Made by a program: the position numbers and the translations under genes. Source: Flavobacterium cyclinae (GTDB lineage Bacteria; Bacteroidota; Bacteroidia; Flavobacteriales; Flavobacteriaceae). Taken from it: a stretch of 64,000 nt of DNA. Below are positions 1,268 through 21,996 of this stretch, in pieces. Position 1 is the first letter of the stretch. Every line of letters starts with the position of its first letter. The stretch is taken from positions 682,001-746,000 of the forward strand of contig NZ_CP089095.1 of NCBI RefSeq assembly GCF_021172145.1, given 5' to 3'. The notes beneath the pieces were generated by a model. It did not search any database, was not told where the DNA came from, and saw only the letters and a program-made list of their open reading frames with translations.

Positions 1268-1312
1268 TATGATTTTAATCATGTTTTAATCGTTTTAATT
1301 GTGTTTCATTTG
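1268..1312 (+). promoter_or_regulatory. Crp/Fnr-type operator and -7 box for the 596-aa gene
   Basis: The operator TATGATTTTAATCATG (1268-1283) has TGATT/AATCA half-sites around two bases. A -7-like box TTCATTTG lies at 1305-1312, and its last G is 36.5 bp from the operator centre. The same spacing is seen at the other operator copies in the window, implying activator binding near -41.5. Confidence 0.7.
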
Positions 1313-1370
1313 TCACTATTTATTTTGCTAAGAGAATAAGTAGAACGCAAAAATTAACCAAGAAAACAAT

Positions 1371-3161
1371 ATGACTTTACAAAAAAACGTACACACTTTT
1401 CACATTCCTGTTATGGGATTGGCTTTCACTATTGATAGTCCAGTGCGAGTGGCACAATACGGAATTGATTCTGTAATCTCTATCATGGATGACGATTTGA
1501 TTGAAAAAATGACCGCTTTTTATGCCGAAAAATTCAAGCAACCGTATGAAGAAATTTCGCAAAAAGTAGAAGATTTTAGAGCCAAAAGAATTACCAATTA
1601 TTTGAATTTACTCGATACAGTTGTCACTCAAAAATTCGAAAGTTTCAAATCGGAATTGATTGAAAAAAGAACGCAATTAGAAGATTTTATCGCCATTTTG
1701 CCAACAACTTCCGAATTAAAAATCAAATTAGAACATTTAATCGAATCAGGAAAAAACAATATAATGGAATTGAAAACGATTCTTGACCATCATTTTGCAC
1801 CAGGTAGTATCGATGTGAATATCATGACAAAACTTGATAAAGATAATTTTAGTGATGAAGAACAATTGCCCGTAATTTATAACGATGCGCATGCAGCTTT
1901 AAGAGGTTTTGTAAACAGTACCACAAATTCATCGGTAGTTTTTTCTGCTGGAATGAATCCGAGATTGTACAGTTATATGGAAAATTTTGATGCTTTTTAT
2001 CCCAATGCAAACGGACAATTTCAGAAGAAAATCATTTTGAAAGTGAGTGATTTCCGTTCAGCAATGATTCAAGGAAATTTTCTTGCTAAGAAAGGACTTT
2101 GGGTTTCTGAATATCGTATAGAATCAGGTTTAAATTGTGGAGGTCACGCTTTTGCTACTGATGGGTTTTTATTAGGTCCAATTTTGGAAGAATTCAAAAA
2201 CAAAAAAGACGAGTTGATTCAATCGGCTTATTCGCTATTGACAAATGCTTTAGCTTCAAAAAATAAAATAGTTCCAAACGAACCTCCTGTTTTAAAAATC
2301 ACAGTGCAAGGTGGCGTAGGAACAGCAGAAGAGCATCAGTTTTTATTAGACCATTATCAAGTAGATGCTGTGGGTTGGGGTTCTCCGTTTCTTTTAGTTC
2401 CAGAAGCTACTTCAGTTGATGCGGAAACAAGAAAATTATTAGCTGATGCCAAAGAAAAAGATTTGTATTTGAGTAATATTTCTCCACTTGGAGTTCCGTT
2501 TAATACGATTAAAGGCATGACAAATGATTTCTTTAAAAGCCAACGCATCGCTTCAGGAAAAGCAGGAAGTTCGTGTCCTAAAAAATATTTAGCATTAAGC
2601 AAAGAATACAAGAAAGAAGGTACTTGTATCGCATCTAAAAAACATCAAGACAAGAAATTAGAAGAGTTAGAAGCAAAACGCAATAGCATTTCGTTCGAAG
2701 CTTACACCAAAGAATACAATTCAATCACAGAAAAATCATGTTTGTGTGTGGGATTATCCAATGCAAGTCACTTAGAATTAGGAATTCCAATTAAAGGTCA
2801 AGCGCAAGGAGTGGTTGTTTGTCCTGGTCCAAATATGGCTTATTTTTCAAGGGAATTTTCTTTAAAAGAGATGATTCAGCATATTTATGGCAAAAAAGAA
2901 ATCGAAGATCATACCGATAGACCTAATATGTTAGTGAAAGAATTAGGTTTGTATGTTTCGTATTTGTCAACTCAAATAAATGAAGCTTTCGAGATAACTC
3001 CCCAACAAATCAAAAAATGGGAAACATTTAAAACGAATCTTTTAAATGGAATCGACTATTATAAATCGATTTTCCAAGAAAAGAACTCAAAAATTCAAAA
3101 CGATATTACAGAATTAGAATTGCAACTAAACAAACTTGAATTCAATGTTGTTTCAGTTTAA
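1371..3161 (+). CDS. conserved protein of unknown function, possible FMN-type TIM barrel with a Cys-rich region
   Basis: I do not recognise a named family for this 596-residue cytoplasmic protein. The opening (HIPVMGLAFTIDSPVRVAQ) and the centre (TVQGGVGTAEEH, about 311-322, then VDAVGWGSPFLL, about 331-342) resemble the phosphate-binding and C-terminal strands of flavin-dependent TIM barrels such as 2-nitropropane dioxygenase or FabK relatives; this is a pattern impression, not an alignment. Six cysteines stand out: C256 in NCGGHA, C402, C419, the pair C457/C459, and C484 in VVVCPGP, which could bind metal or an Fe-S cluster. Residues 40-140 and 540-590 look helical or coiled. It is a single-gene unit between terminators. 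It carries the same operator as nosZ and the nor operon, so it is probably made under nitrogen-oxide respiration. Confidence 0.7.
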   Translation: MTLQKNVHTFHIPVMGLAFTIDSPVRVAQYGIDSVISIMDDDLIEKMTAFYAEKFKQPYEEISQKVEDFRAKRITNYLNLLDTVVTQKFESFKSELIEKRTQLEDFIAILPTTSELKIKLEHLIESGKNNIMELKTILDHHFAPGSIDVNIMTKLDKDNFSDEEQLPVIYNDAHAALRGFVNSTTNSSVVFSAGMNPRLYSYMENFDAFYPNANGQFQKKIILKVSDFRSAMIQGNFLAKKGLWVSEYRIESGLNCGGHAFATDGFLLGPILEEFKNKKDELIQSAYSLLTNALASKNKIVPNEPPVLKITVQGGVGTAEEHQFLLDHYQVDAVGWGSPFLLVPEATSVDAETRKLLADAKEKDLYLSNISPLGVPFNTIKGMTNDFFKSQRIASGKAGSSCPKKYLALSKEYKKEGTCIASKKHQDKKLEELEAKRNSISFEAYTKEYNSITEKSCLCVGLSNASHLELGIPIKGQAQGVVVCPGPNMAYFSREFSLKEMIQHIYGKKEIEDHTDRPNMLVKELGLYVSYLSTQINEAFEITPQQIKKWETFKTNLLNGIDYYKSIFQEKNSKIQNDITELELQLNKLEFNVVSV

Positions 3162-3213
3162 GATATAATTATTTAATAATGAGGGTTATTTAATTTTTAT
3201 AAGTAGGTTTTTT

Positions 3214-3254
3214 TTAAAAGGTTGTTTTCAGTTTTTGGAGACAACCTTTTTTAT
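3214..3254 (+). terminator. terminator after the 596-aa gene
   Basis: AAAAGGTTGT (3216-3225) pairs with ACAACCTTTT (3241-3250), followed by more T. It isolates the preceding gene from the cytochrome c/nosZ transcript. Confidence 0.7.
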
Positions 3255-3292
3255 TCAACAATTGTTAAGAATAAAGATAAAAATATCTTTTT

Positions 3293-3337
3293 TATGATTG
3301 TAATCATACTTTTAAAGCGCTCAATTTCAGAAATTTG
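3293..3337 (+). promoter_or_regulatory. Crp/Fnr-type operator and -7 box for the cytochrome c/nosZ transcript
   Basis: TATGATTGTAATCATA (3293-3308) is a perfect palindrome apart from the two central bases. A -7-like box GAAATTTG (3330-3337) ends 36.5 bp from the operator centre, and the cytochrome start codon follows at 3365. No convincing -33 element is seen, as expected for an activator-dependent promoter. Confidence 0.75.
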
Positions 3338-3364
3338 TAGTAATAATTTTAATATTAAAATATC

Positions 3365-3847
3365 ATGAACAAATCAATTTTACTTGTTTTATCTCTTGCT
3401 TTAGCTATAGCATGTGGTAAAAAAGAAGCATCTGCTGAGGATAATTATCAACCTGGTGGAGGTGAAGCAACAACAGAGGCTGCCGCTGATCCGGCTTCGT
3501 ATGATCCAAAACGTGGTGAAGGAAAATACGACACTGTTGAATTAGGTGCAACATTAGACCAAGCAATGGCTACTAAAGGGGAAGAAGTTGCAGGTGTAAA
3601 ATGTACATCGTGTCATAAAATGACAGATGAAAAATTAGTAGGGCCAGGATGGAAAGGCGTAACTGAAAGAAGAACACCTCAATGGATTATGAACTTCATT
3701 ACTAATCCAGATCCAATGATTGATAAAGATCCAGAAGTACAAGCACAACTTGAAATTTGTTTGGTTCGTATGCCTAACCAAGGTGTTTCTGATGATGAAG
3801 CCAGAGGGATTTTAGAGTATATGCGTAAAAATGACGGTGTAAAATAA
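3365..3847 (+). CDS. monoheme cytochrome c lipoprotein, likely electron donor to NosZ
   Basis: The protein has 160 residues. A lipoprotein signal (lipobox ending at C17 in AIACGKK) is followed by a low-complexity linker, then a single c-type heme site CTSCH at about residues 79-83. A Met in the C-terminal part (VRMPNQGVS) is the likely axial ligand. It is the first gene of the transcript and lies 61 bp before nosZ, with a hairpin in between. Cytochromes encoded directly upstream of clade II nosZ are thought to pass electrons to the CuA centre. Location should be the periplasmic face of the inner or outer membrane, tethered by lipid. Confidence 0.85.
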   Translation: MNKSILLVLSLALAIACGKKEASAEDNYQPGGGEATTEAAADPASYDPKRGEGKYDTVELGATLDQAMATKGEEVAGVKCTSCHKMTDEKLVGPGWKGVTERRTPQWIMNFITNPDPMIDKDPEVQAQLEICLVRMPNQGVSDDEARGILEYMRKNDGVK

Positions 3848-3854
3848 ACGTAAA

Positions 3855-3890
3855 AAGGTATTGTATTAAGTGAAAGTGATACGATACCTT
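3855..3890 (+). other. intercistronic hairpin between cytochrome c and nosZ
   Basis: AAGGTATTGTAT (3855-3866) pairs fully with ATACGATACCTT (3879-3890), allowing one G-U pair; the loop is 12 nt. No long T-run follows, so it looks more like an mRNA-stabilising or attenuating element than a terminator. Confidence 0.55.
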
Positions 3891-3908
3891 AATTTAACTA
3901 CATATATC

Positions 3909-5894: not shown

Positions 5895-5896
5895 TT

Positions 5897-5928
5897 TTTT
5901 AGGGAGCAGAAATGCTCCCTAATTTTTC
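5897..5928 (+). terminator. terminator directly after nosZ
   Basis: TTAGGGAGCA (5899-5908), loop GAAA, TGCTCCCTAA (5913-5922), then a T-run. It may act as a partial terminator that sets the nosZ to accessory gene ratio. Confidence 0.8.
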
Positions 5929-6054
5929 TTCCAATAAAACAAAAATCTTCACTTAAAACTATAATTAAAAATCATTATTGTTTTTCTTTTAGTAAGAAAA
6001 ACTTACGATAATTTATTTAAAACAATATATGATTTTAACATAAAAATAAAAATC

Positions 6055-7059: not shown

Positions 7060-7065
7060 AATCAA

Positions 7066-9768: not shown

Positions 9769-9831
9769 AATATATGGTTTATAAATTTAGATTTTATAGT
9801 TAAATAATTTATTTTTTTTAACTGATCCAAT

Positions 9832-10646: not shown

Positions 10647-10668
10647 TTTAGTTTAACCATCGCTAAAA

Positions 10669-10704: not shown

Positions 10705-10744
10705 CCTAATTATAAGAAAAGCAAAGTTGAATTAATAATTATTT

Positions 10745-11299
10745 CTATTTTGGTAAAAGTACGTCGCCAATTACGTGAATTATTCCGTTGCCAGTTTCAA
10801 TTGTAGCAACTATTTCAGAACCATTGATATACGTTTTGTCATCTTTTTTAGTGATTTTTACTTTTCCGCCATAAACCATGTCAAACTCTTGACCATCTTG
10901 CATGTATTCTACTTTTAAGACACCTACATAGGTATGATATCCTAAAATATTTTCTAAATCACCCTTCTTTTCAGGTTTTAACAAGCCTTCTACTGTTCCA
11001 GCAGGTAACTTGTCAAATGCAGCATTTGTTGGTGCAAATACAGTAAATGGTCCAGCATTACTTAATGATGTTACTAAACCAGCCGCTTTAACAGCAGTAA
11101 CTAAAGTAGTGTGGTCTTTACTTCCTACAGCTGTTTGCACAATATTTGGAACTGAAGTTTCATCAACCACATTCTCTTGTCCACCAGCTGGTACTTCTGT
11201 AGATTCTGATGCTGGTTCTGAAGCTGTTTCTTCGCCTTGTTTACACCCAAAAGTGATCAGTAAACTGGCTAACAATAAAGTTTTAATGGAATTTTTCAT
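10745..11299 (-). CDS. fasciclin (FAS1) domain lipoprotein
   Basis: The protein has 184 residues. It has a lipoprotein signal with lipobox Cys at about residue 19 (LLITFGCKQG), an acidic Ser/Glu-rich linker, then one FAS1 domain (about 55-182). The typical blocks are present: TAVKAAGLVTSLSNAGPFTVFAPTN and NGIIHVIGDVLLP. FAS1 domains mediate adhesion or bind small ligands; the role here is unknown. Its promoter carries the same Crp/Fnr-type operator as nosZ, so it belongs to the nitrogen-oxide regulon by sequence evidence. It is a single-gene unit. Confidence 0.9.
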   Translation of the reverse strand: MKNSIKTLLLASLLITFGCKQGEETASEPASESTEVPAGGQENVVDETSVPNIVQTAVGSKDHTTLVTAVKAAGLVTSLSNAGPFTVFAPTNAAFDKLPAGTVEGLLKPEKKGDLENILGYHTYVGVLKVEYMQDGQEFDMVYGGKVKITKKDDKTYINGSEIVATIETGNGIIHVIGDVLLPK

Positions 11300-11320: not shown

Positions 11321-11365
11321 CAAAGTACTTGATTATCTGAAAATTATTTTATGCGTAGAATCATA
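11321..11365 (-). promoter_or_regulatory. Crp/Fnr-type operator and -7 box for the fasciclin gene
   Basis: TATGCGTAGAATCATA (11350-11365) keeps one perfect half (AATCATA) and a weaker partner. On the minus strand a -7-like GTACTTTG (11321-11328) ends 36.5 bp from the operator centre, the same geometry as at nosZ. Confidence 0.55.
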
Positions 11366-11379
11366 AAAAAAATACTTTT

Positions 11380-12597
11380 TTATTCCTTTTTTGTAAAAAA
11401 AGTTGTCCATAAAATACTTGCGAAAAGAAGTATAGCAATTCCAAACAAAGCTTCATTAATTTTAGGAATTAAAGTATAATTTAATGATGCGATTCCTTGA
11501 ATTCCTAATACCACTTCATTAAGTACAACTCCAATGCTAAATACAATTAATCCTAAGATGGTTTTTTTATTTACAACAATAAAATTATTTACATAAATGT
11601 AAAACAACAGAAAAAGTGAAATAATAGCTAATAATATCAAGTGTAAGTAAGCAATCACAATCGGTCTAAAACCAAATGCTAATTTGCTAATTGCAGGAAC
11701 GGTGGAACCCAATTGTAATAAGAACTTCGCACTCAAAGCAAAACTGATGAATAAAATCATATATTTTAAGTAATTTGGAAGAGTAACGAAGATGGATTTG
11801 TTTTCTTTAAAAATAGTTTTGAATAATAAATACCAAACAACTACTTGAACAATTGCCGAAATAGCCGTTAAAACATAAATTAGTAGCGGTAAATCTAACC
11901 AAAGAGTTGATAGAAAATACCCTGCAATACAAGACCAAAATAGCAATACAAATGATTGTGAATAAATGCGATTTGAGTTTGATGTTATTTTTAAATAATC
12001 CAACAACAATCCCATACAAGCAAAGAAAAACCAACCATTGTATTGAAAATGCAAATAGTAGTAAATGGAAGCCAAATATTCATTTTGATGGATGTTTTTT
12101 GTTGCCATCATATAAGCTAAAGCAAAAGTTCCTAAAGACGAAATCACATTAAAAAATAATGCAGCTTTGAACCATTTTGTTGCTACAGAAGAAGTTTCAA
12201 GTTGTTTGCAATCTTTAAAGAAAACATAAGCAAACCAATAAGAAACAAAAATAGAAAGGGTTGAAAAAGTAATCGAAATTGCACCATAACCTTGCATAAT
12301 AAAGGAAATCAGCATTACATAAGAGCAAATTAAATTTCCAATTAAAATAAGATTATATTTCTTAAATGTTATTTTGTGAAGCGTGTTGTGTTTTTGTAAA
12401 AAGGCAATTAGTAACGTCATTAAAGTATGCGTAACCCAACCAGCGAAAGCAAAATGAGAGTGCGAATGTTGTACACTTTTTTGATCGAGTAGCGGAAATT
12501 CAAACAGAATTTTATAACGCATTAAAAGTCCTAATAATGCAACAAGCATCAGATTAAAAATCGAAAACCGAATCCAAAAAGTTGTTTTAAACGACAT
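11380..12597 (-). CDS. polytopic membrane protein, heme-copper oxidase subunit I-like
   Basis: A 405-residue protein with about twelve hydrophobic segments. A His-rich start of helix 2 (VQHSHSHFAFAGW, about residues 41-53) recalls the low-spin heme ligand region of heme-copper oxidase or NorB subunit I, and of NnrS-like proteins. I do not see a clear second set of copper-binding His, so a respiratory oxidase is doubtful. Its ATG overlaps the stop of the upstream regulator gene (TGATG), so the two are co-translated. This coupling suggests a heme or NO-related membrane function tied to the regulator. Family assignment is tentative. Confidence 0.55.
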   Translation of the reverse strand: MSFKTTFWIRFSIFNLMLVALLGLLMRYKILFEFPLLDQKSVQHSHSHFAFAGWVTHTLMTLLIAFLQKHNTLHKITFKKYNLILIGNLICSYVMLISFIMQGYGAISITFSTLSIFVSYWFAYVFFKDCKQLETSSVATKWFKAALFFNVISSLGTFALAYMMATKNIHQNEYLASIYYYLHFQYNGWFFFACMGLLLDYLKITSNSNRIYSQSFVLLFWSCIAGYFLSTLWLDLPLLIYVLTAISAIVQVVVWYLLFKTIFKENKSIFVTLPNYLKYMILFISFALSAKFLLQLGSTVPAISKLAFGFRPIVIAYLHLILLAIISLFLLFYIYVNNFIVVNKKTILGLIVFSIGVVLNEVVLGIQGIASLNYTLIPKINEALFGIAILLFASILWTTFFTKKE

Positions 12598-13184
12598 CAG
12601 TAATATAATTTGTGATTAATAATTTCCACTTTATTCGTTTTACTTAATCTTGAAAGCTCTCTAATCACCGTTTCCACACGTAATCCTGTAAAGTTGGCAA
12701 TTTCTTGTCTTGTAAATTCCACTAATTCTTTTTTAGAACAATCGGGGTTTTTGTGTGCATTTAGAAAAGCTAAAATTCTAAACTCTGGTTTTTGGTTTAC
12801 AATGTCTTTAGTGGTTTTGGCTTTGGTGTGAATTCGAGTTGCCATTAAATTCAAGAATTGTTTTTGAATAAAGGGATATTCCTCTAAAATCTTTAAAAAC
12901 TTCTCTTTTGAAATTTTTATAATCTTGGAATCTTTGAAAACTACTGCTGTAGAAGGATATACTTCATCAATAAATAAAGGAGGTTCTCCAAAACTCTGAC
13001 CATTTTTAAAATAGCCTTGGGTAAACTCTTTTCCTTCATCATTTGAATTGTACATTCTTACGCAACCGTCAATAATTTGATAATAAAAATTCGCTGATTC
13101 CTCTTCATGAAAAATAATTTCATTTTTCTTGTACTCCTTGGCAATAGCGCCCCAAGTAAATAATAAATCTAAATCAATCTGCAT
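12597..13184 (-). CDS. Crp/Fnr-family transcription regulator, likely controller of the nitrogen-oxide regulon
   Basis: The 195-residue protein has an N-terminal cyclic-nucleotide-binding-like beta barrel (about 15-110), a long dimer helix (about 105-130) and a winged HTH (about 150-195). The only cysteines are C41 and C149, so there is no FNR-type [4Fe-4S] cluster; a DNR-like heme/NO or other signal is more likely. The recognition helix reads V-E-T-V-I-R (E171, R175), FNR-like (V-E-T-I-S-R) except that the Ser is Ile. That fits operators with ATGAT in place of FNR's TTGAT; this link is my inference. One operator copy lies in its own promoter. Confidence 0.88.
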   Translation of the reverse strand: MQIDLDLLFTWGAIAKEYKKNEIIFHEEESANFYYQIIDGCVRMYNSNDEGKEFTQGYFKNGQSFGEPPLFIDEVYPSTAVVFKDSKIIKISKEKFLKILEEYPFIQKQFLNLMATRIHTKAKTTKDIVNQKPEFRILAFLNAHKNPDCSKKELVEFTRQEIANFTGLRVETVIRELSRLSKTNKVEIINHKLYY

Positions 13185-13226
13185 AAAGTAGTTGTGTTGA
13201 AGGCTTTAATTCTTTTAGATAAAGCA

Positions 13227-13301
13227 CAAATTAATTTCAATAAAAGTAAAAAAAATATGACTGAAATCATACTAGACCTTAATTTATTTCTTGTAAATTT
13301 G
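13227..13301. promoter_or_regulatory. divergent Crp/Fnr-type operator with -7 boxes on both sides
   Basis: TATGACTGAAATCATA (13256-13271) lies between the regulator gene and the copper-supply genes. To the right, TAAATTTG (13294-13301) is a perfect TAnnTTTG box ending 37.5 bp from the centre. To the left, on the minus strand, TTAATTTG (13227-13234) ends 36.5 bp away. The arrangement suggests activation to the right and autoregulation of the regulator to the left. Confidence 0.7.
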
Positions 13302-13305
13302 TCCC

Positions 13306-13680
13306 ATGAAACAATTACTAATCATATTAACCGCGCTAATGTTCCTGAAGCCAATACTCCCGGTTTTAGAGTATGCCGTGAATTATGATTACATTGTAAA
13401 CAACCTTTGTGAGAACAAATCTAAACCCGAATTAAAATGTAACGGAAAGTGTCACTTGGCAAAACAATTGGCAAAAGCTTCCGAAAGTAATTCTGAAAAT
13501 TCTTCTGATAAAAAAATATCTTTCGAACATACTGAAATTGTATTTTTTCAGGAAATTCAACCTATAGAAATTAGACAAATTTATTTTTTAAATAAAACTT
13601 CTATTGGTAACAATTATTCTAACCTTTACTTTCACTTGAATGATTGTGCCTTTTTTCATCCACCCACATTTATTTCTTAA
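13306..13680 (+). CDS. small exported protein with a Cys motif, probable metal-handling role
   Basis: The protein has 124 residues. Residues 1-20 form a hydrophobic export signal or anchor. A short Cys cluster follows: C35 (NNLCEN), then KCNGKCHLAKQL (about 44-55), a CxxxCH pattern that could bind copper; the spacing does not fit c-type heme. The rest is Ser/Glu-rich. The predicted transcription start lies almost on the ATG, so the mRNA may be nearly leaderless. The gene opens a run with a Met/His-rich lipoprotein and an OprC/NosA-like receptor, which suggests copper handling for NosZ. Function is inferred from context only. Confidence 0.6.
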   Translation: MKQLLIILTALMFLKPILPVLEYAVNYDYIVNNLCENKSKPELKCNGKCHLAKQLAKASESNSENSSDKKISFEHTEIVFFQEIQPIEIRQIYFLNKTSIGNNYSNLYFHLNDCAFFHPPTFIS

Positions 13681-13797
13681 TTAAATATTGGTTTTTGTTA
13701 GTTCATTTACTGAATTAACCCACTCAACTTATATCATAATTTCTCTGAAAAAATCACATTTCAGATGGAATTACAATCACTTTAATTAAAAAATATA

Positions 13798-14643
13798 ATG
13801 AAAACTTCAATAAAATATATTGCAGCCATTTTTGCTATGGCTTTAACTTTTGTGTCTTGTTCAAACGATGATGAAATTACTGTAAATGAATTAGACGGAA
13901 TTACTAAATTTAAAGAAATCACTAACGATACACATACGATTGAATTGTATTCTCACATGGGAAGTTTAGAACAAGGATACAATGAAATTAGTCTACGAAT
14001 CAAAGAAAACGGAACCAACAATTATATAACAAATGCCCAAGTGAGTTGGATGCCTCTAATGCACATGACTTCAATGACGCATTCTTGTCCTAAATCAGAA
14101 GTGGAAAAAGTAACTGAAAATGGAACTTTATATGAAGGTTATATTATGTTTCAAATGGCGCAAAATGACACGGAATATTGGGACTTAAAAATAGATTATA
14201 CCATTAATGGAATAGACTACACTGCTACAGATGTAATTGATTTACCAGCCTCTACTCATCGAAAAGTAAATACATTCACAGGTTCAGATGGTGTTAAGTA
14301 TTTAGTGGCTTACATTGAGCCTCATCATCCAAAAGTAGCGCTTAACGATATGAAAGTTGGCGTTTGGAAAATGCAAAACATGATGACGTTCCCAGTTGTG
14401 GATGGTTACACTGTAAAAATCGACCCAAGAATGCCAAGTATGGGAAATCATACCTCTCCAAATAACGTTCATGCAACTCAAACGCTTGCTGGTGGATTAT
14501 ATGATGGGAAATTATCGTTAACCATGACAGGTTATTGGAAAATCAACTTACAATTAGCTGACGCAGAAGGAACTATCTTAAAAGGAGAAGAAATCACAGA
14601 AACAGTTACTGCTAGTAGTATTTTCTTCGAAATCGAATTTTAA
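13798..14643 (+). CDS. Met/His-rich lipoprotein with a FixH/YtkA-like domain, probable copper binder
   Basis: The protein has 281 residues. The lipobox Cys is at about residue 21 (LTFVSCSND). The N-terminal half contains a Met/His-rich block (WMPLMHMTSMTHSC, about 83-96). The C-terminal third has MPSMGNHTSPN and TMTGYWKINLQL, the pattern of FixH/YtkA-like beta-sandwich domains that bind copper. It is followed by a partial terminator and then an OprC-like receptor. The likely job is to accept copper at the outer membrane or in the periplasm for nitrous oxide reductase. Ligands are visible; the physiological link is inferred. Confidence 0.75.
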   Translation: MKTSIKYIAAIFAMALTFVSCSNDDEITVNELDGITKFKEITNDTHTIELYSHMGSLEQGYNEISLRIKENGTNNYITNAQVSWMPLMHMTSMTHSCPKSEVEKVTENGTLYEGYIMFQMAQNDTEYWDLKIDYTINGIDYTATDVIDLPASTHRKVNTFTGSDGVKYLVAYIEPHHPKVALNDMKVGVWKMQNMMTFPVVDGYTVKIDPRMPSMGNHTSPNNVHATQTLAGGLYDGKLSLTMTGYWKINLQLADAEGTILKGEEITETVTASSIFFEIEF

Positions 14644-14654
14644 ATTTTACTTAT

Positions 14655-14690
14655 AAAAAAGGTCGTTATGACATTATAATGACCTTTTTT
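14655..14690 (+). terminator. hairpin with T-run between lipoprotein and receptor genes
   Basis: AAAAAGGTCGTTAT pairs with ATAATGACCTTTTT with one G-U pair. The receptor ATG follows at 14705 with no room for an obvious promoter, so it is probably a leaky terminator or attenuator. Confidence 0.65.
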
Positions 14691-14704
14691 AAAACTTTTA
14701 TATC

Positions 14705-16690
14705 ATGAAAAAATTAATAGTATTTTTTCTGTCACTTTCGTTTTGTTTTACTTTTAGTCAAGAAGCGGATTCTCTTAAAACCAAAGAACTCAAAGAAGTT
14801 TTGGTAGTAGGAACAAAAGCAGCTTTACACGAAAAACAAACCAAAACACTTGCTACTTTAGACGAATTTCTGCAAAAATCAACCAAAGTAGATTTAATCA
14901 AAAGAGGTGCTTATGCTTGGGAACCCATCATCAACGGAATGGCAACTGAACGAACCGTAGTTACCATCGACGGAATGCGAATCTTTGGTGCTTGTACCGA
15001 TAAAATGGATCCTGTAACTTCCTATGTTGAAGTATCTAATTTGTCAGAAGCTACCATTTCTTCAGGGCAACAAGGCAGTTGTCATGGAAATACGATTGGT
15101 GGTTCTATCGATTTAAAAAGAAGCCAACGCCAATTTACTAATGCGGGTTGGGAATTCTTTGTTAACTCAGGTTATGAAACGAATAATCACCAAAAAATCA
15201 TAGGCTCAGCCATCAATTATGCTGATAGTTTATTTTATGTGGATACCGATGTAATGTTTCGCGATGCCGAAAATTACAAAGCAGGAAATAACAAAGAAAT
15301 TCAATTTTCACAGTTCAGAAAACTGAATCTTTCCGCCACTTCGGGTTACCGATTAGCTCCCAATAAAAACATTGAAGCTTCTGTAATTTTTGATAGAGCT
15401 ACTGATGTTGGTTATCCTGCATTACCAATGGATGTTTCTTTGGCGGAAGCTTTGATTACTTCAGTAAAATTCAATTACAAACCAAGTTTTGATTCAATCG
15501 ATAATTGGGAAACCAAACTCTATTTCAATACGATTACACACACCATGGACGACACCAAACGTCCTGATGTTCCTATTCACATGGATATGCCAGGTTGGAG
15601 CGATACCTATGGTTTTTATTCCAAAGTAAATAGGAAATACAAAAAACATCAATTTTTAGCCAATTTGAATTCGTTTTACAATCGTTCCGTTGCCGAAATG
15701 ACAATGTATCCGTCTGATCCAAACGAAAACTTAATGTTTATGTACACTTGGCCTGATGTTCGTACGTTGTATGCTGGAATTTATTTGGAAGATAATTTCG
15801 AAATCAACTGTCATTCGAATTTGAAATTCACCACCAATTTAGGTTTTCATAATAACAATGTAGCGAGTGATTTCGGCTTACAAAGTTTACAGATTTTTTA
15901 TCCTGAAATGGATGCTTCAAAATCTCGATTCCTAAAAAGTTTTTCCACTAATTATTTCTATAACAAAGACGGAATTTCGTATGGATTCGGAATGGGGTAT
16001 GGCGAACGCGCTCCATCAGTTTCAGAAGGGTATGGGTTTTATTTGTACAACAGTTTTGATGGATTTGATTACATTGGGAACCCAAACTTAAAAAACGAAA
16101 AATCATTAGAAGGAAATGCCAATATTGGTTTCAAAAATGCGAAATGGCAAACCAAAATATCAGCATCGTATTTTCATATTTACGATTATATCATTGGAAT
16201 TCCGGATGCTTCGGTAGCGCCTATGACTATTGGTGCCAATGGAATAAAAGTCTATACTGCTTTAGATTATGCGACTATTTTATCTTCCGATTTTACGGTA
16301 AGTTATCAATTATCAGATTTCTGGATTTGGAAAGGACAATTCGTCTATAACTTAGGAAAAGACAATGAGAATAACGGATTGCCTTTTATGAGTCCGTTTA
16401 ATTACATGACTTCTTTAGGCTTTAGACCAGGAAAATTTAGCTCGGAATTACAACTAAAAGGAAATACTACACAAACTCAATACAATGCTTTTTATGGTGA
16501 AGACAAAACACCAGATTATGCGATTGTAAATGCCAATTTTGGATATAAATTTACTTTTGAGAAATCAAAAATGATGCTAAATATGGGTGTTGAAAACATG
16601 TTCGATGCCAATTATACTACTTATACCGATTGGAAAAATATTCCAAGAATGGGACGAAATATCTTTATTAATTTGATGTTTCAGTTTTAA
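14705..16690 (+). CDS. TonB-dependent outer membrane copper receptor (OprC/NosA family)
   Basis: The protein has 661 residues: a signal peptide (about 1-19), a plug domain (about 30-150) and a 22-strand beta-barrel type C-terminus ending in Phe (FINLMFQF). The plug carries DGMRIFGACTDKMDP with C97 and M101. This CxxxM motif binds copper in Pseudomonas OprC together with a barrel HxM pair. Here H292, M293 and M295 (IHMDMPG) are candidates for that pair. NosA, a member of this family, is needed for copper loading of NosZ in Pseudomonas stutzeri. Position beside a nos locus and a shared operator upstream support the same use here. Confidence 0.88.
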   Translation: MKKLIVFFLSLSFCFTFSQEADSLKTKELKEVLVVGTKAALHEKQTKTLATLDEFLQKSTKVDLIKRGAYAWEPIINGMATERTVVTIDGMRIFGACTDKMDPVTSYVEVSNLSEATISSGQQGSCHGNTIGGSIDLKRSQRQFTNAGWEFFVNSGYETNNHQKIIGSAINYADSLFYVDTDVMFRDAENYKAGNNKEIQFSQFRKLNLSATSGYRLAPNKNIEASVIFDRATDVGYPALPMDVSLAEALITSVKFNYKPSFDSIDNWETKLYFNTITHTMDDTKRPDVPIHMDMPGWSDTYGFYSKVNRKYKKHQFLANLNSFYNRSVAEMTMYPSDPNENLMFMYTWPDVRTLYAGIYLEDNFEINCHSNLKFTTNLGFHNNNVASDFGLQSLQIFYPEMDASKSRFLKSFSTNYFYNKDGISYGFGMGYGERAPSVSEGYGFYLYNSFDGFDYIGNPNLKNEKSLEGNANIGFKNAKWQTKISASYFHIYDYIIGIPDASVAPMTIGANGIKVYTALDYATILSSDFTVSYQLSDFWIWKGQFVYNLGKDNENNGLPFMSPFNYMTSLGFRPGKFSSELQLKGNTTQTQYNAFYGEDKTPDYAIVNANFGYKFTFEKSKMMLNMGVENMFDANYTTYTDWKNIPRMGRNIFINLMFQF

Positions 16691-16717
16691 AAATACTACA
16701 AATTAGAAGAATTGGTT

Positions 16718-17155
16718 TTATAGCGATTTCAAGAAAGTTTCTCCTGACTTAATTCCCAAAGCTAATTCTTCTAAATTCGTGGTTTCTAGCATATACGCTA
16801 GTTCATTACGAATACTTTTAAATTTATCATGCACCGGACAAGGATGAGTTTCTGAGCAATGAGATAAACCTAATCCGCAACCATGAAAAACGGCATCACC
16901 ATCAATAGCATCAACGATTTCAACTAAGAAAGTTGAAGCAATACGTTTTTTCGGAATATAAAATCCACCATTTACACCTTTAACAGAATCGATAATACCA
17001 GCTTTTACAAGTATTTGTAAAATTTTAGCTGTAAACGCTTGTGGCGAATCGATTTCTTTAGCGATATCAACAAAACCTACCTTTTTTTCTTCTAAGGAAT
17101 GTTTAGCAATAAATATAGTAGCTTTTATAGCATAATTGCATGATTTTGAAAACAT
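16718..17155 (-). CDS. Rrf2-family regulator with three conserved cysteines
   Basis: This winged-helix regulator has 145 residues from ATG at 17155; an upstream TTG at 17161 adds two residues and is less likely. The HTH covers about residues 8-65, with the wing KGVNGGFYIP. C93, C100 and C106 (CGLGLSHC, then CPVHDKF) match the cluster ligands of NsrR/IscR-type members, which hold an Fe-S cluster sensitive to NO or redox. Its promoter has the Crp/Fnr-type operator. A close paralogue heads the nadA-nadB-norC-norB operon, so a regulatory cascade for NO stress is likely. Confidence 0.9.
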   Translation of the reverse strand: MFSKSCNYAIKATIFIAKHSLEEKKVGFVDIAKEIDSPQAFTAKILQILVKAGIIDSVKGVNGGFYIPKKRIASTFLVEIVDAIDGDAVFHGCGLGLSHCSETHPCPVHDKFKSIRNELAYMLETTNLEELALGIKSGETFLKSL

Positions 17156-17186
17156 AAGCAATGATAAATTTGAAAGAATTAAGGGT

Positions 17187-17231
17187 CAAATATACAATGG
17201 AATTATCAAATCTCACCTGATTTTTATCATC
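17187..17231 (-). promoter_or_regulatory. Crp/Fnr-type operator and -7 box for the first Rrf2 gene
   Basis: TGATTTTTATCA (17218-17229) is an imperfect version of the palindrome. On the minus strand TATATTTG (17187-17194) is a perfect TAnnTTTG box ending 36.5 bp from the operator centre. Confidence 0.6.
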
Positions 17232-17248
17232 GTATTTTTAGGATAAAT

Positions 17249-18574
17249 TTATTCTTCAATGTTCAATTTACTTTTCTTCCAAGATTGAATTAAAAGATAA
17301 ATGAAGAAACTCGCCATACTGAACATTAAAATTGTTCCTAAAATGATGAAAAGTAAAACCCAATTCCCACTGGAACTACTCATTTTACTAAAACTATCCG
17401 AAGTCAATCCTGCTTGCCAAATCGCACGTTGAATGCCCATCCCAATTAAGGAAATTAGAAAAAGTAATAAGGTAATTTGTACTATCCAAAACGCAATGCT
17501 CCCATACAAACGCCATTTTGCAGAATTAAAAGTCGGTTTAATAAAGTAGAAAACACCTGCCAAAATAATCATAGTGTTAATCCCAATGGTAGTTCCCATA
17601 GCATGCGCCACCGTGATATGCGTTCCGTGCGTGTATAAGTTGATGGCTGGAATCGACATGAATAAAGCTAGAGTTAAGTTTATCGTGACCCAATAATCAG
17701 ATGCCATCAAAAATCGATAAGGGAAAAAGTAGTAAAATTGTTTATTTTCTTTGATTTGTTGGCTCCATTTGTAGAAAATACGAATCAAAATAATCCATTC
17801 CGTCATGCTCACTGCGTAAGCAATGTAGTGAATGTATTTTTCGGTTGGAAGTAGGTAAATATGATGTCCCCAATTGAACATCAAATTAAACATTCCCAGA
17901 AAATACATCGCAAAAGATAGTTTTTGATAGGACGATTTCTCATCGCCACTAATTTTTTCCATCAAATAAAAAGCAACACCATAAATGATTTGATTGATAG
18001 CACCCACAAGCGAACCATTTACTTTCCACTGAATCGTCATATCGGCAATAAAATGTTGTCTGAAATAAGGAAAAATCCACAAATAGTTTTCGATGAAAGT
18101 GAAAATAAAGAAGATAATTCCAGTAAGCCACATCCAATAATACACAGGCCATTTTATCGAAAAACCAATTTGATGCAGATAGAAAACTAAGAAAATAATA
18201 AAAGAGAGAAAAATCGGTAAAGCCCAAACAGGATTGAATTCCCAATATTCTCTTCCGCCAAAATCACCTGTAAAATAGCTGTAGAAAATTCCAAGTAAAG
18301 CAATTACCCAAAGTGAAAAATGCAAGTATTGTAAAAAAGTACCCAATCGAGTGGTTTTCATTTTTGCAATAATCAGTGTTACAAAACCTAATCCTGCTGT
18401 TATGATGCCCAAATAAGCGCTACTCACATGAAGCGGACGAAGCGATAAAAATCCCATAACACCCGATTTTGGTTGGGTTATGCGATAACTTTCGGAAGCT
18501 AAATGTCCAAAAAACAAACCTAAAACAAACAGTATAAGAGCTACTCTGATGAGCCAAATTCCAATATTCTTCAT
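17249..18574 (-). CDS. norB: nitric oxide reductase large subunit
   Basis: NorB reduces two NO to N2O at a heme b3/FeB site in the inner membrane. The 441-residue protein has about twelve helices. Ligand-bearing motifs seen are LRPLHVSSAYLG (about 47-58), FNWGHHIYLLP in the middle, and HGTHITVAHAMGTTIG (about 315-330), which match the subunit I fold of NorB. The length is near that of cytochrome c-dependent NorB without the quinol-oxidase extension, and norC precedes it with a 4-bp overlap. It is the last gene of the rrf2-nadA-nadB-norC-norB operon. Its product N2O is the substrate of the nearby NosZ. Confidence 0.9.
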   Translation of the reverse strand: MKNIGIWLIRVALILFVLGLFFGHLASESYRITQPKSGVMGFLSLRPLHVSSAYLGIITAGLGFVTLIIAKMKTTRLGTFLQYLHFSLWVIALLGIFYSYFTGDFGGREYWEFNPVWALPIFLSFIIFLVFYLHQIGFSIKWPVYYWMWLTGIIFFIFTFIENYLWIFPYFRQHFIADMTIQWKVNGSLVGAINQIIYGVAFYLMEKISGDEKSSYQKLSFAMYFLGMFNLMFNWGHHIYLLPTEKYIHYIAYAVSMTEWIILIRIFYKWSQQIKENKQFYYFFPYRFLMASDYWVTINLTLALFMSIPAINLYTHGTHITVAHAMGTTIGINTMIILAGVFYFIKPTFNSAKWRLYGSIAFWIVQITLLLFLISLIGMGIQRAIWQAGLTSDSFSKMSSSSGNWVLLFIILGTILMFSMASFFIYLLIQSWKKSKLNIEE

Positions 18575-19002
18575 TTCTTTTCTAAACTAAAAGTTCCTAT
18601 TATTTCAGGTTGGTAATCTTGCGGATTCGATGTTCCGGTGGCATCTACATTTTTTAAAAAGTGTAAAAGCGCTTTCATTTCGTCATCCGAAATTTCAAAA
18701 GCAGGCATTTGTTTTACTCCCGATTTTATAATGCCTTTGATATACGCTTCGTTGTTGGCAGTTCTGGAATACACATTCGTTAAATCCGGACCCAAATAAC
18801 CGCCTAAGCCATACAATTGATGACACGTATGGCAATTGTATTTTTGCCAAACCAATCGACCTTCAGCTACTAAATGAAGTTCTTTTTCAGAATAGGGCGT
18901 TGGGCTAAAAAGCGGAATGGCATAAATCCAAATGCTAAACGTTAGAAAACAAACGAAAAGCAACAAAAAAATGCGTTTTGGATGAGCAAATAGATTCAGC
19001 AT
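18571..19002 (-). CDS. norC: nitric oxide reductase cytochrome c subunit
   Basis: The protein has 143 residues. It is anchored by one N-terminal helix (about 10-31), followed by a periplasmic cytochrome c domain. The heme site is CHTCH (about 57-61) in the family context YNCHTCHQLYGLGGYLGPDL. The axial Met is likely in KQMPAFEI (about 98-105). It passes electrons to NorB. The gene overlaps norB by 4 bp and its start shares one base with the end of nadB, so it is translationally coupled to NAD synthesis genes. Confidence 0.92.
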   Translation of the reverse strand: MLNLFAHPKRIFLLLFVCFLTFSIWIYAIPLFSPTPYSEKELHLVAEGRLVWQKYNCHTCHQLYGLGGYLGPDLTNVYSRTANNEAYIKGIIKSGVKQMPAFEISDDEMKALLHFLKNVDATGTSNPQDYQPEIIGTFSLEKK

Positions 19003-20525
19003 TACGAAATAGTTTTTTCTTTTTTAACCGATTTTACTCGGTATCTTTTTGGTAAACAATCTTTTAAAATGATTTCTGCGGTTTGAATCAAATTATAAGT
19101 TTCGCATAAAAACGGATGCGAATTATAATTTTTGAACTTCATTTTGAAGCGTTTGCTCATTTCGGTAACCATTTCATATACTTTTTCAGTATTTTTTCCC
19201 GAAGTGTACAAAGCATCGTATTTCATGAAATGTTGCAGTTGGTTTTTGAATTGCAAAATTTGGTCGTGATGAATGTTTTTATAGCGAATTGGCGTAATTT
19301 CAGACTTATTCAATTTAATTGCATCTATTGATGAAATCAGATGATTTGCTAAATCATGCGCATAAACAATCGCTTCTAATAATGAATTCGAAGCCAATCG
19401 ATTGGCGCCATGAAGTCCGGTGTGCGAACATTCTCCTATGGCAAACAATTGTTTGATAGAAGTAGCACCCATTTCATCCACCACAATACCACCACATTGA
19501 TAATGCGCTGCTGGAGTTATCGGAATTAAATCTTTAGCAACATCAATTCCATTTTCGAAACAATAGTTGTAAACCTTTGGAAATTTTGTTTTAAATGTAG
19601 CTATCGGTAAATGTCTAACATCGAGCCAAACGTGTTGCGAATGTTCTTTTTTCATTTGATCCGAAATGGTTTTCGAAACGATATCTCGAGTTGCTAATTC
19701 GCCATCAGGATGGTATTGAAAAACAAAACGTTCCATTTTTTGATTCAAAATATGAGCTCCAAATCCTCTAATCGCTTCGGTAATTAAGAAAGCTTGGCTT
19801 TTATTAGGTTCGTAAAGTGCTGTGGGATGAAATTGAATGTATTTCATTTTTTCCAATTTAGCACCCGCTCGATACGCCATCGCCACACCATCCCCAGTTG
19901 AAACAAACGGATTAGAAGTCACGCCAAACACTTGTCCCGAACCACCAGTTGCTAAAACGGTTGCTTTTGCTACGATGGATGTCACTTCGCTTTTTTCATC
20001 AAATCCAATGATTCCGATGCATTTTTGATTGTCTAATAATAAATCAGTTGCAAAAAAGGAAGTTTTGATGGTGACATTCCGTAAATTTTGAACAACTTGA
20101 ATCAACTTGGTTTCAATTTCTAATCCTGTTTTGTCTTTGTAATGTACAATACGATTTTGAGAATGACCGCCTTCTAACCCTAAATCCAGTTCACCTGAAT
20201 TATTCTTGTCCAATTCCACTCCCCATTGAATCAATTCTTGCAATCGGGTAGGTGCTTCTGTAATGACGTGTTCGACTACTTTTTTATCGCAAATGCCTTT
20301 TCCAGCAAGTAAAGTGTCTTGAATGTGTTGTTGATAACTATCTTTGATAAAATCGTGTACTACGGCAATTCCGCCTTGAGCATAATAGGTATTGCACTCG
20401 TCTATAGAGGTTTTGCTAAGTAAAATAATTTGTAAGTTCGGATTTTGCTCGCTGAGATATTTTGCTAGTGATAATCCCGCTAATCCTGTTCCTACTATGA
20501 GTATATCGGTTTCTAAATTTTGCAT
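19002..20525 (-). CDS. nadB: L-aspartate oxidase
   Basis: NadB oxidises L-aspartate to iminoaspartate, the first step of de novo NAD synthesis, and can use fumarate in place of O2 under anoxia. The 507-residue flavoprotein has an N-terminal FAD motif (VGTGLAGLSLAKYL, about 11-24). The succinate dehydrogenase-like catalytic region shows IQFHPTALYEP and AAHYQCGGIVVDE. It lies six bases after nadA and overlaps norC by one base. Flavin and fumarate use would suit the low-oxygen lifestyle implied by the rest of the operon. Confidence 0.95.
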   Translation of the reverse strand: MQNLETDILIVGTGLAGLSLAKYLSEQNPNLQIILLSKTSIDECNTYYAQGGIAVVHDFIKDSYQQHIQDTLLAGKGICDKKVVEHVITEAPTRLQELIQWGVELDKNNSGELDLGLEGGHSQNRIVHYKDKTGLEIETKLIQVVQNLRNVTIKTSFFATDLLLDNQKCIGIIGFDEKSEVTSIVAKATVLATGGSGQVFGVTSNPFVSTGDGVAMAYRAGAKLEKMKYIQFHPTALYEPNKSQAFLITEAIRGFGAHILNQKMERFVFQYHPDGELATRDIVSKTISDQMKKEHSQHVWLDVRHLPIATFKTKFPKVYNYCFENGIDVAKDLIPITPAAHYQCGGIVVDEMGATSIKQLFAIGECSHTGLHGANRLASNSLLEAIVYAHDLANHLISSIDAIKLNKSEITPIRYKNIHHDQILQFKNQLQHFMKYDALYTSGKNTEKVYEMVTEMSKRFKMKFKNYNSHPFLCETYNLIQTAEIILKDCLPKRYRVKSVKKEKTIS

Positions 20526-20531
20526 GATGTT

Positions 20532-21467
20532 TTAGTTTAGCGCTAACATTCTTTGAATAGGAAGTAAAGCTTTTTCGATGATTTCGTTGTCCAAATGTAC
20601 TTCCGGATGTTCATCTTGTAAACATTGATAGAGTTTTTCTAAGGTGTTGACTTTCATAAACGCACACTCACTGCACGCACAAGTATTGTCTTCTTTTGAA
20701 GGCGCTGGAATTAATGTTTTGGTCGGATTATCCAATTGCATTTGATGTAAAATTCCCGCTTCTGTGGCTACGATGAAAGTGTCGTTTGAACTGTTTTTTA
20801 CATGATTCAACATGCCAGATGTCGAACCTATGTAATGCGCTACCTTCAAAATATGCGTTTCCGATTCTGGATGTGCAATGATAGTAGCGGTGGGATGTTT
20901 TTTATATAAATCGATTAATTTTTCTAATGAAAATGCTTCGTGAACAATACAAGAACCTTCCCATAAAACCATATCGCGACCAGTTTCTGAAATTAAGTAT
21001 TTGCCTAAGTTTTTATCTGGAGCAAAAACAATAGGTTGGTCTTCAGGAATAGATGCGATTACTTTTTTAGCATTGGAAGAAGTACAAACTATATCTGTTA
21101 AGGTTTTAACTTCGGCTGTGCAATTTATGTAAGTTACAACGGTATGATTCGGATAATTTTTTAGAAAAGCTTTGAATGCATCTGGCGGACAACCATCGGC
21201 AAGGGAACAACCTGCTTTAACATCGGGAACGATTACTTTTTTATTGGGATTCACAATTTTAGCCGTTTCTGCCATAAAATAAACGCCAGCAAAAACGATA
21301 ATATCGGCATCAACTTGCGATGCTTTTCTCGATAATTCTAAACTATCACCTACAAAATCAGCAATTTCTTGAACGGTTTCTTCTTGATAATAATGCGCCA
21401 AAATAACCGCATTTTTTCTTTTTTTCAATTCAAGAATTTTCTCTTTTAAATCCGAAGTTGTTTTCAT
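20532..21467 (-). CDS. nadA: quinolinate synthase A
   Basis: NadA condenses iminoaspartate and dihydroxyacetone phosphate to quinolinate using an oxygen- and NO-sensitive [4Fe-4S] cluster. The 311-residue protein shows ILAHYYQEETVQEIADFVGDSLEL near the N-terminus. Cluster Cys candidates are C115 (INCTAEV), the Cys in EGSCIVHEAF and those in NTCACSECAFM. It sits directly after an Rrf2 regulator with a probable NO-sensing cluster and before nadB and norCB. NO reductase expressed with an NO-sensitive enzyme makes biological sense as protection. Confidence 0.95.
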   Translation of the reverse strand: MKTTSDLKEKILELKKRKNAVILAHYYQEETVQEIADFVGDSLELSRKASQVDADIIVFAGVYFMAETAKIVNPNKKVIVPDVKAGCSLADGCPPDAFKAFLKNYPNHTVVTYINCTAEVKTLTDIVCTSSNAKKVIASIPEDQPIVFAPDKNLGKYLISETGRDMVLWEGSCIVHEAFSLEKLIDLYKKHPTATIIAHPESETHILKVAHYIGSTSGMLNHVKNSSNDTFIVATEAGILHQMQLDNPTKTLIPAPSKEDNTCACSECAFMKVNTLEKLYQCLQDEHPEVHLDNEIIEKALLPIQRMLALN

Positions 21468-21503
21468 TAGAGGATATTTTTATCTTTTATTTAATTAAAT
21501 TTT

Positions 21504-21938
21504 TTAAAGCTTAAGGAAAGTTTCTCCGGTGTTGAATTCACTAATTAAATCCAAAAGAGAGGTTTCTTTCAGCGTTTTCTTCAAGTTTTCACGTAATGGT
21601 TTGTACTTATGATGAAAAGGACACGGTTGTTTGTCGGAACAATCATGAAGTCCTAAACTGCATCGGTCAAATAAGTCATTTCCGTCGATAGCTTTTACGA
21701 GCTGTTCTAATTTGATGTGTTTCAATTGTACCTTTTCGATTTCAAATCCACCGCCATTTCCTTTAATCGATTTTATGATGTCGGCTTTTACCAAACGTTG
21801 TAAAATCTTAGCTGTAAAAGGTTCTGGTGATTCAATTTTTCTGGCAATGTCTCGAATACCGCAACGCTTGCCCGCAGAGGATTCTGAGGCAATGTAAATG
21901 GTAGCTCGTATGGCATATTCACAGGTTTTTGAAAACAT
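21504..21938 (-). CDS. Rrf2-family regulator heading the nad-nor operon
   Basis: The protein has 144 residues. The HTH covers about 8-65 with the wing KGNGGGFEI. C93, C100 and C106 (CSLGLHDC, then CPFHHKY) are the same three-Cys set as in the paralogue at 16718-17155; the two proteins look about half identical. It is the first gene of rrf2-nadA-nadB-norC-norB. It probably senses NO or Fe-S status and may repress its own operon, while a Crp/Fnr-type protein activates it from the upstream operator. Whether it is NsrR or an IscR-like type cannot be decided by eye. Confidence 0.9.
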   Translation of the reverse strand: MFSKTCEYAIRATIYIASESSAGKRCGIRDIARKIESPEPFTAKILQRLVKADIIKSIKGNGGGFEIEKVQLKHIKLEQLVKAIDGNDLFDRCSLGLHDCSDKQPCPFHHKYKPLRENLKKTLKETSLLDLISEFNTGETFLKL

Positions 21939-21952
21939 AGATAAAATTTACA

Positions 21953-21996
21953 CAAAGTTAGGCATTTTAAATCATCGAAATATGATTTTAGTCATA
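21953..21996 (-). promoter_or_regulatory. Crp/Fnr-type operator and -7 box for the nad-nor operon
   Basis: TATGATTTTAGTCATA (21981-21996) overlaps the last codons of nrdG. On the minus strand TAACTTTG (21953-21960) is a perfect TAnnTTTG box ending 35.5 bp from the operator centre, and the rrf2 ATG follows at 21938. Confidence 0.72.

Follow-up and report, generated by a model that had tools for sequence, protein, structure and literature searches.

The window analysed here, a 64,000-nucleotide stretch of the Flavobacterium cyclinae genome (positions 682,001 to 746,000 of contig NZ_CP089095.1, whose coordinates are marked C1), contains a nosZ unit, a gene for a Crp/Fnr-type regulator, a fasciclin-domain gene, two Rrf2 genes and a nadA-nadB pair, as well as genes given the working names p596, p405, p124, norC2 and norB2 (Table 1). 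Palindromic operator sites, each followed at a nearly fixed distance by a TAnnTTTG-like box, were found upstream of these units, which a preliminary description had joined into one nitrogen-oxide regulon under a single activator.

Operator sites and promoter geometry

All six palindromes of the preliminary description are present in the sequence. The distance from the operator centre to the last base of the box is exactly 36.5 bp in five of seven cases, as had been claimed, the remaining two being 35.5 and 37.5 bp, and the site between the regulator and p124 genes does have a box on each side (37.5 bp on the plus and 36.5 bp on the minus strand). The operator at 21981 lies inside the 3' end of nrdG (open reading frame (ORF) 21972-22706), a location that had been overlooked.

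The palindrome by itself is weak evidence for an operator: at up to three mismatches the window contains 26 matches against 16.6 expected, and 3 of 100 shuffles reached 26. The composite of operator and box was therefore used for the tests. Matches with at most one mismatch to the palindrome are exactly those at 1268, 3293, 13256 and 21981, while the site at 17216, with four mismatches, falls outside the three-mismatch list and its assignment to the operator type of the regulator is uncertain. TTTG has a per-position frequency of 0.0098 in the window, so that five of seven boxes at one preset offset correspond to p ~2e-9, an optimistic value as the offset was picked after inspection of the data. 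The joint operator-box pattern is far beyond chance.

Scanning of the whole genome (3,017,062 bp) for ATGAN6TCAT plus NANNTTTG at any of 31 gaps gave 26 matches, against 12 for the reversed pattern. Nine of them were at the gap equal to 36.5 bp, eight at gaps 20, 21 and 23, and nine were spread over the other 27 gaps; the Poisson probability of the peak is 1.4e-10 when the background is the nine matches outside gaps 20-24, and 1e-8 when it is all 17 others. Several of the 26 matches fall in coding sequence (e.g. L006, L010, L011, L012 and L015), and the peak itself is a mixture of main-operator sites, sister-operator sites (see below) and one coding match (844316, L011). The strict composite, consisting of TATGAYYNNRRTCATA (TATGAYYnnRRTCATA), 20-22 bp and NNNNTTTG, gave six matches in 3.0 Mb and none for the reversed pattern. 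All six were found between C1:661593 and 703996, within 42 kb, and correspond to RIC/norCB (two-way), the nosZ unit, regulator/p124 (two-way) and the Rrf2-nadA-nadB unit. The genome scan and position bias thus came out as the preliminary description had predicted.

At gap 21 and up to two mismatches, seven matches were obtained, namely RIC and norCB (one two-way site, at C1:661.6 kb), the nosZ unit, p596 (the operator at 1268..1283, two mismatches), the regulator, nirK, and C1:525365, which stands before an acetyl-CoA hydrolase/transferase-family gene. The nirK site, with two mismatches and the hybrid operator CATGATTTTTATCATA, is located 6 kb beyond the cluster of strict matches. Allowing three mismatches gave 15 matches against one reversed; the hemN site, at 1834603, is among the eight that this adds. 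The sites therefore reach beyond the window, to nirK, RIC and a clear norCB.

Class II activators of the Crp/Fnr superfamily act from a position centred near -41.5. In Flavobacterium psychrophilum the sigma-A box TAnnTTTG was mapped at -12 to -5 (excerpt of PMC9723704); with the last base of the box at -5, a distance of 36.5 bp places the operator centre at -41.5, the class II position. The class II placement of the preliminary description is therefore numerically exact when the F. psychrophilum box is applied, the transcription start in F. cyclinae being a predicted one. The p124 box ends five bases before the ATG, and 31 of 55 relatives have the same spacing between site and gene; if this box is taken as -12 to -5, transcription of p124 would start on its ATG and give a leaderless transcript.

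Table 1. Operators and genes of the window; distances run from the centre of the operator to the final base of the TAnnTTTG-like box
Feature	Position	Strand	Remarks
A-type operator TATGATTTTAATCATG	1268..1283	+	box TTCATTTG at 1305-1312, 36.5 bp; upstream of p596
p596	1371..3161	+	596 amino acids (aa); no Pfam or NCBIfam match
Perfect A-type operator TATGATTGTAATCATA	3293..3308	+	box GAAATTTG at 3330-3337, 36.5 bp; upstream of cytochrome c and nosZ
Cytochrome c and Sec-dependent nosZ	3365-3847 and 3909-5894	+	head of nos unit; NosZ above NCBIfam cut-off
Fasciclin-domain protein	10745..11299	-	domain match
Operator TATGATTCTACGCATA, one half defective	11350..11365	-	box GTACTTTG (4/6) at 11321-11328, 36.5 bp; upstream of fasciclin gene
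p405	11380..12597	-	overlaps end of regulator gene
Regulator, Crp/Fnr-type	12597..13184	-	195 aa; recognition helix ...GLRVETVIR
Two-way A-type operator TATGACTGAAATCATA	13256..13271	both	box TAAATTTG at 13294-13301 (+, 37.5 bp); box TTAATTTG at 13227-13234 (-, 36.5 bp)
p124 unit	13306..16690	+	p124 13306-13680; YtkA-like 13798-14643; TonB-dependent receptor 14705-16690; domain matches
Rrf2 gene	16718-17161	-	downstream of hybrid site 17216
Hybrid operator GATGATAAAAATCAGG	17216..17231	-	B-type on the left and A-type on the right; box TATATTTG at 17187-17194, 36.5 bp; upstream of Rrf2 16718-17161
Rrf2-nadA-nadB unit	17249..21938	-	Rrf2 21504-21938; nadA 20532-21467; nadB 19002-20525; cytochrome c (norC2) 18571-19002; haem-copper oxidase-like (norB2) 17249-18574
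A-type operator TATGACTAAAATCATA	21981..21996	-	within last codons of nrdG; box TAACTTTG at 21953-21960, 35.5 bp; upstream of Rrf2-nadA-nadB unit

Conservation in relatives and co-occurrence with the regulator

Eighty loci, mostly from Flavobacterium, were picked by presence of the regulator (best 80 of 98 relatives). A gene was counted as carrying the composite when a score of at most 4 was found upstream, and only rows with at least 200 bases upstream were scored, by which six of 45 p596 rows were dropped. The composite was present upstream of cytochrome c/nosZ in 36/36, the fasciclin gene in 65/68 (all at gap 21), the regulator in 64/81 and p124 in 48/55. Pooled, these four leading genes have it in 213 of 240 cases, compared with 0 of 563 for fourteen inner or unrelated gene classes; the four were chosen after the counts, and the classes rrf2b, rrf2a, nadA, norC2, p596 and globin are given apart. 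For these the counts were 11/11 (Rrf2 at 21504), 14/32 (norC2-like), 11/39 (nadA), 11/39 (p596), 10/33 (Rrf2 at 16718) and 3/48 (globin), so that the footprints at p596 and at the 16718 Rrf2 gene are not general. The inclusion of the 16718 unit in the regulon, as in the preliminary description, is not supported: its site is a half-and-half hybrid with four mismatches, and the relatives that share it are near ones. Where the 21504 Rrf2 gene follows nrdG, the NrdG proteins end in MTKIIFR or MTKIIIR (11/11), an ending found in 0 of 30 other rows, indicating that the operator was fitted into the coding sequence. The fasciclin operator has one defective half-site (TATGATTnnACTCATA or TATGAGTnnAATCATA) in most relatives, and which half is affected varies by species.

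Gene order is reshuffled among species, which provides a natural test of whether nadA gains a site of its own outside the operon: it has one in 0/11 cases within the Rrf2-nadA-nadB operon and in 11/28 outside it. The corresponding numbers for norC2 are 0/12 and 14/20, not used as a split-operon test since the norC2-like copies outside the operon are only 40-56% identical to that of the window and possibly represent another gene. A scan of the loci free of gene names recovered 261 composites, with 230 before listed genes, 14 before RIC, and 17 elsewhere. RIC, present in 27 of the 80 loci, was not on the gene list. The 17 others comprise one before norC, one at a contig end where the fasciclin gene is expected, two before OsmC-looking ORFs, and 13 palindrome back-readings, coding or unassigned matches. 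Among 221 distinct operator readings (both directions), a TTTG end was found at 36.5 bp in 70, at 37.5 bp in 70 and at 35.5 bp in eight, with 0-12 at each other distance. One locus (L045), from a record titled Bifidobacterium breve metagenome-assembled genome, contains a flavobacterial cluster with a regulator 79% identical, and is mislabelled or derived from a mixed bin.

The strict composite was then compared with the presence of the regulator family (E <= 1e-30) in 101 Flavobacterium genomes. It was found in 49 of them (reversed control, 0/101), and the regulator family in 53; the composite was present in 46/53 genomes with the family and in 3/48 without it. The cut-off had been moved from E <= 1e-50 after the first result was seen; at that value the composite was present in 21/24 genomes with and 28/77 without the regulator, the latter count arguing against a link between the two. 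Twenty stretches were inspected in 14 genomes, of which 13 had been regulator-negative at 1e-50; nine of the stretches (L148 and L154-L161) contained a second regulator clade, 40-45% identical. The clade 2 gene adjoins the site in seven, lies behind hmp in L157 and is ~2.6 kb off in L158; it is accompanied by a small ORF and a globin gene, or by hmp. The L154 genome also carries a clade 1 regulator. Above its NCBIfam cut-off, hmp was identified in four genus loci (L157, L158, L163 and L165), the stretches of L163 and L165 containing no regulator gene, and in L164 no gene was found downstream of the site.

In a family set of 120 genomes, one per genus, the strict composite was found in 23 (reversed control, 2) and a regulator relative (E <= 1e-30) in 26, with an overlap of 16; that is, 16/26 genomes with the regulator contain it and 7/94 without. 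Twenty-two of the 30 sites outside the own genome were fetched. They precede RIC in four cases, nirK, hemN, nadA (63% identical), p596 (46% identical) and globin (41% identical), the RIC, nirK, nadA and hemN products being above NCBIfam cut-offs; nine stretches with a regulator gene have the site before a 93-101-aa ORF that by eye encodes a membrane protein, and four ORFs were left unnamed. In these genera the site is often beside the regulator gene.

The regulator, the sister operator and alternative explanations

The regulator contains PF00027 (3e-20) and PF13545 (4e-7), both above cut-off, which places it in the Crp/Fnr superfamily. Another HTH_Crp_2 match, at C1:807472, was rejected as a Crp protein, being by eye ParB. 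A tree was made of 32 chosen members (the window protein, 12 from the 80 loci, 10 from other genera and 9 of clade 2) together with the remaining three Crp/Fnr proteins of the genome. The 32 split from these three with support 93/94, a value below the program's own star and accompanied by long outgroup branches; clade 1 is firm (100/100). The RVETVIR of the recognition helix is kept in 31/32, with 19 of the sampled members only 36-45% identical to the window protein, and the FNR-like paralogue has ATESCIR at this position. No cysteine or histidine is conserved over the 32 members, so that the four cysteines of FNR are not a feature of the family; clade 1 members all have His191 and nearly all His119. 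In E. coli CRP, Arg82 binds the phosphate of cyclic AMP (cAMP). The CRP segment QERSA aligns with kypst of the profile, Arg82 facing Pro77, which is present in 32/32. Flavobacteriales Crp/Fnr homologues are filed as likely carbon sensors in an excerpt of PMC8510549.

A sister operator (B-type, ATGAYA..TRTCAT-like) was found before ccoN, hemN and a P-type ATPase gene, as well as beside the gene for the FNR-like paralogue (C1:1245319). It departs from the A-type at positions 7 and 10, in some cases on one side only. Fnr is the nearest model for the paralogue, which scores under the cut-off of that model and contains a CxxC close to its N-terminus; judging from this neighbourhood, it probably uses the sister operator ATGAYA-N2-TRTCAT, at the same promoter position. 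The p596 operators are A-type in 8, B-type in 19 and mixed in 1 of 39 rows, and the 10 sites present at the 16718 Rrf2 gene are without exception mixed. An A-to-B switch at the same position was observed upstream of p596 in L066-L092 and upstream of the regulator in L088, L094, L097 and L100, as if the promoter had passed from the regulator to the FNR-like paralogue. At C1:502775-502845 (L001, L002), two B-type composites overlap in divergent orientation between ORFs that by eye look like a fatty-acid desaturase and rsmG.

We put a probability of roughly 0.8 on the regulator of the window acting as a dimer and, as class II activator, switching on a nitrogen-oxide regulon from an operator at -41.5. 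The dimer would bind TATGAYY-NN-RRTCATA at Bacteroidota-type sigma-A promoters and would help RNA polymerase to start at those with the TAnnTTTG box at -12 to -5. Since the operator is palindromic, one copy can serve promoters on both sides, as at regulator/p124 and RIC/norCB, and the regulator would activate its own gene. The predicted targets are the copper nitrite reductase, the nitric oxide (NO) reductase, the nitrous oxide (N2O) reductase unit, RIC, NadA with NadB, p596, the fasciclin protein and the p124 unit. RIC and, in relatives, globin and the flavohaemoglobin Hmp would repair NO damage; because RIC and Hmp recur as targets, the signal would most likely be NO or a nitrosative product. 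The core of the one-activator regulon of the preliminary description is therefore supported, more strongly than had been stated, without the hybrid Rrf2 unit and the norCB assigned to the window, and with a regulon larger than the window.

ANR and DNR integrate low oxygen with NO in Pseudomonas, and a similar arrangement, in which both paralogues would share the sites and the A/B differences would merely tune affinity, is a possible but doubtful explanation here. It would account for the hybrid half-sites and for the operators of the regulator gene, which are A-type in 54, B-type in 4 and mixed in 6 of 81 rows, the B-type and mixed ones looking like a cascade from FNR to the regulator. However, nosZ units are pure A in 36/36 and the 21504 Rrf2 units in 11/11, which argues that discrimination between A and B is maintained.

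It is improbable that TATGATTnnAATCATA is bound instead by another Crp/Fnr protein, chiefly the FNR-like one, the genes forming an oxygen regulon to which the window regulator would be accessory. Both site types do have a TGA-N6-TCA core at the same spacing, hybrid sites exist (nirK, 17216 and 525365), p596 is more often preceded by a B-type site in relatives, and in three other genera A-type-like sites adjoin FNR-related genes. The composite, however, tracks the family of the window regulator across genomes and in other genera often adjoins its gene, and the B-type sites of the genome at ccoN, hemN, the P-type ATPase gene and the FNR-like gene differ at positions 7/10.

A repressor, with the palindrome blocking polymerase, is more improbable still. 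Several other genera have the site in the interval that separates the regulator gene from the divergent gene for the small membrane protein, and the strict composite was found to point only toward the latter, so that the regulator side could be repressed; but -41.5 is the position of a class II activator, and a blocker would not need a spacing that varies by no more than about 1 bp. Chance palindromes in AT-rich intergenic DNA, which would fit the palindrome alone being barely above shuffles at three mismatches, were rejected with near certainty by the reversed strict pattern (0 in the own genome, 2/120 and 0/101 genomes), the conservation and the spacing.

Several observations weigh against the regulator as class II activator of this regulon. 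The support comes from sequence comparison, and p-values are too small because related genomes are not independent. The strict composite was absent from 7/53 regulator-bearing genomes of the genus and 10/26 at family level, and present without the regulator in 3/48 and 7/94, respectively, the three such genus genomes being assemblies 88-93% complete. Of the eight sites in the seven regulator-free genomes of the family set, three (L168, L170 and L174; three genera) precede an ORF of 278-279 aa that by eye looks like a universal stress protein and adjoins an FNR-related Crp/Fnr gene whose product is 32-34% identical to the own FNR-like protein. Similar sites can therefore belong to other regulators, and the operator type is not exclusive to the regulator family across the whole Flavobacteriaceae. 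Of the other five sites, one precedes a cytochrome c-fasciclin-nosZ unit, one is located next to a nirK-like cytochrome domain, one precedes an ORF resembling phosphoenolpyruvate carboxykinase, and two lead to no ORF. The L128 regulator differs in the recognition helix and yet has a nearby site. Finally, as no histidine or cysteine is conserved over the 32 members, no known NO-sensing chemistry is visible.

A wider proposal, which we hold tentatively and at somewhat less than even odds, is that a regulator family of which no description was found, without iron-sulfur (Fe-S) cysteines, family-wide histidine or cAMP arginine, senses nitrogen oxides by unfamiliar chemistry and controls both denitrification and the defence against NO across much of the Flavobacteriaceae. 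De novo synthesis of nicotinamide adenine dinucleotide (NAD) through NadA, an Fe-S enzyme that NO would damage, and p596 as a new NO-linked flavoenzyme would be under the same switch, and in evolution single-base changes at positions 7/10 would hand promoters to or from the FNR-like paralogue.

Predicted target genes and relation to known systems

The RIC, NirK, NadA, NadB and NosZ proteins are all above NCBIfam cut-offs. The NorB encoded beside RIC, outside the window, matched subunit B of solved cNOR at 3.6e-109, and NorQ-like and VWA genes come after its gene. The window had also been described as containing norCB, which was not borne out: norB2 has a COX1 Pfam match (5e-24), and no PDB sequence match was found for it at 0.001, hence none to solved NO reductases. 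The 17249-19002 pair is divergent and haem-copper oxidase-like, its identity as an NO reductase being doubtful. An operator is present at the genes 13306-16690, as claimed; their proposed role in copper metabolism comes from the YtkA-like match and the label given in the preliminary description. The nadA gene is the only one of the genome, which presumably makes an additional basal promoter necessary.

The DNR/NNR/NnrR regulators of Proteobacteria are likewise Crp/Fnr proteins with a palindromic operator, nirK/nor/nos targets and NO as presumed signal, and here too nir, nor and nos genes carry sites (nirK, with its hybrid; norCB; the nosZ units). The operator differs, that of DNR being CTTGATnnnnATCAAG, compared with TATGAYYnnRRTCATA here, and the half-site is ATGAY and not TTGAT as in the DNR form TTGATnnnnATCAA (both from an excerpt of PMC1274295). 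The Bacteroidota-type sigma box, and nadA and p596 as targets, also distinguish the present system. Among PDB sequences, E. coli CRP (6e-16) matched the regulator profile better than did DNR (7e-12). Activation of DNR and NNR depends on NO and goes through haem; in the present family, the only invariant histidine, His191, is one of clade 1. The HcpR protein of Bacteroides and Porphyromonas is likewise a Crp/Fnr activator of the nitrosative stress response in Bacteroidota (excerpt of PMC13370916); the HcpR2 motif is GTAACnnnnGTTAC and its predicted regulon is hcp alone in most Bacteroides (PMC1274295, same excerpt), a gene not searched for here. FNR has in common the TGA-N6-TCA core and the predicted class II position, but the family described here is without conserved cysteines and a separate FNR-like paralogue exists. 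For the clade II nosZ of Nitrosophilus, control by an Nss-like Crp/Fnr protein at TTGA-N6-TCAA sites was proposed (excerpt of PMC11539149); operator, spacing and gene set differ. The predicted regulon is a variant of the known DNR/NNR kind. Among the matches listed from the open-access literature, none described an operator or regulator of denitrification genes in flavobacteria, and none linked NadA to denitrification. Bacteroidota hold many clade II N2O reductases, and a defined operator, regulator and promoter geometry make the regulation of N2O sinks in these bacteria directly testable. Predicted membership in the regulon gives a function lead for the large 'hypothetical' p596 family and ties NAD synthesis to nitrogen oxides.

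The p596 family is large and uncharacterised; its genes have operators of the A- or B-type in several species and also in one further genus. Its sequence gave one PDB match, at E 0.71. The structural model (predicted local distance difference test (pLDDT) 67, predicted template modelling score (pTM) 0.70) resembles flavin mononucleotide-dependent TIM-barrel enzymes such as PfaD, FabX, FabK and 2-nitropropane dioxygenase, suggesting a flavoenzyme-like protein. Six cysteines (256, 402, 419, 457, 459 and 484) are invariant in 26 sequences and could hold an Fe-S cluster. The p405 protein had no match in Pfam, NCBIfam or PDB sequences. Its gene was found in 73 of the 80 loci, where it mapped directly behind the regulator gene; in genome G178 (L149) a relative is located away from the regulator gene and has its own A-type site, and in L150 a distant relative follows RIC.

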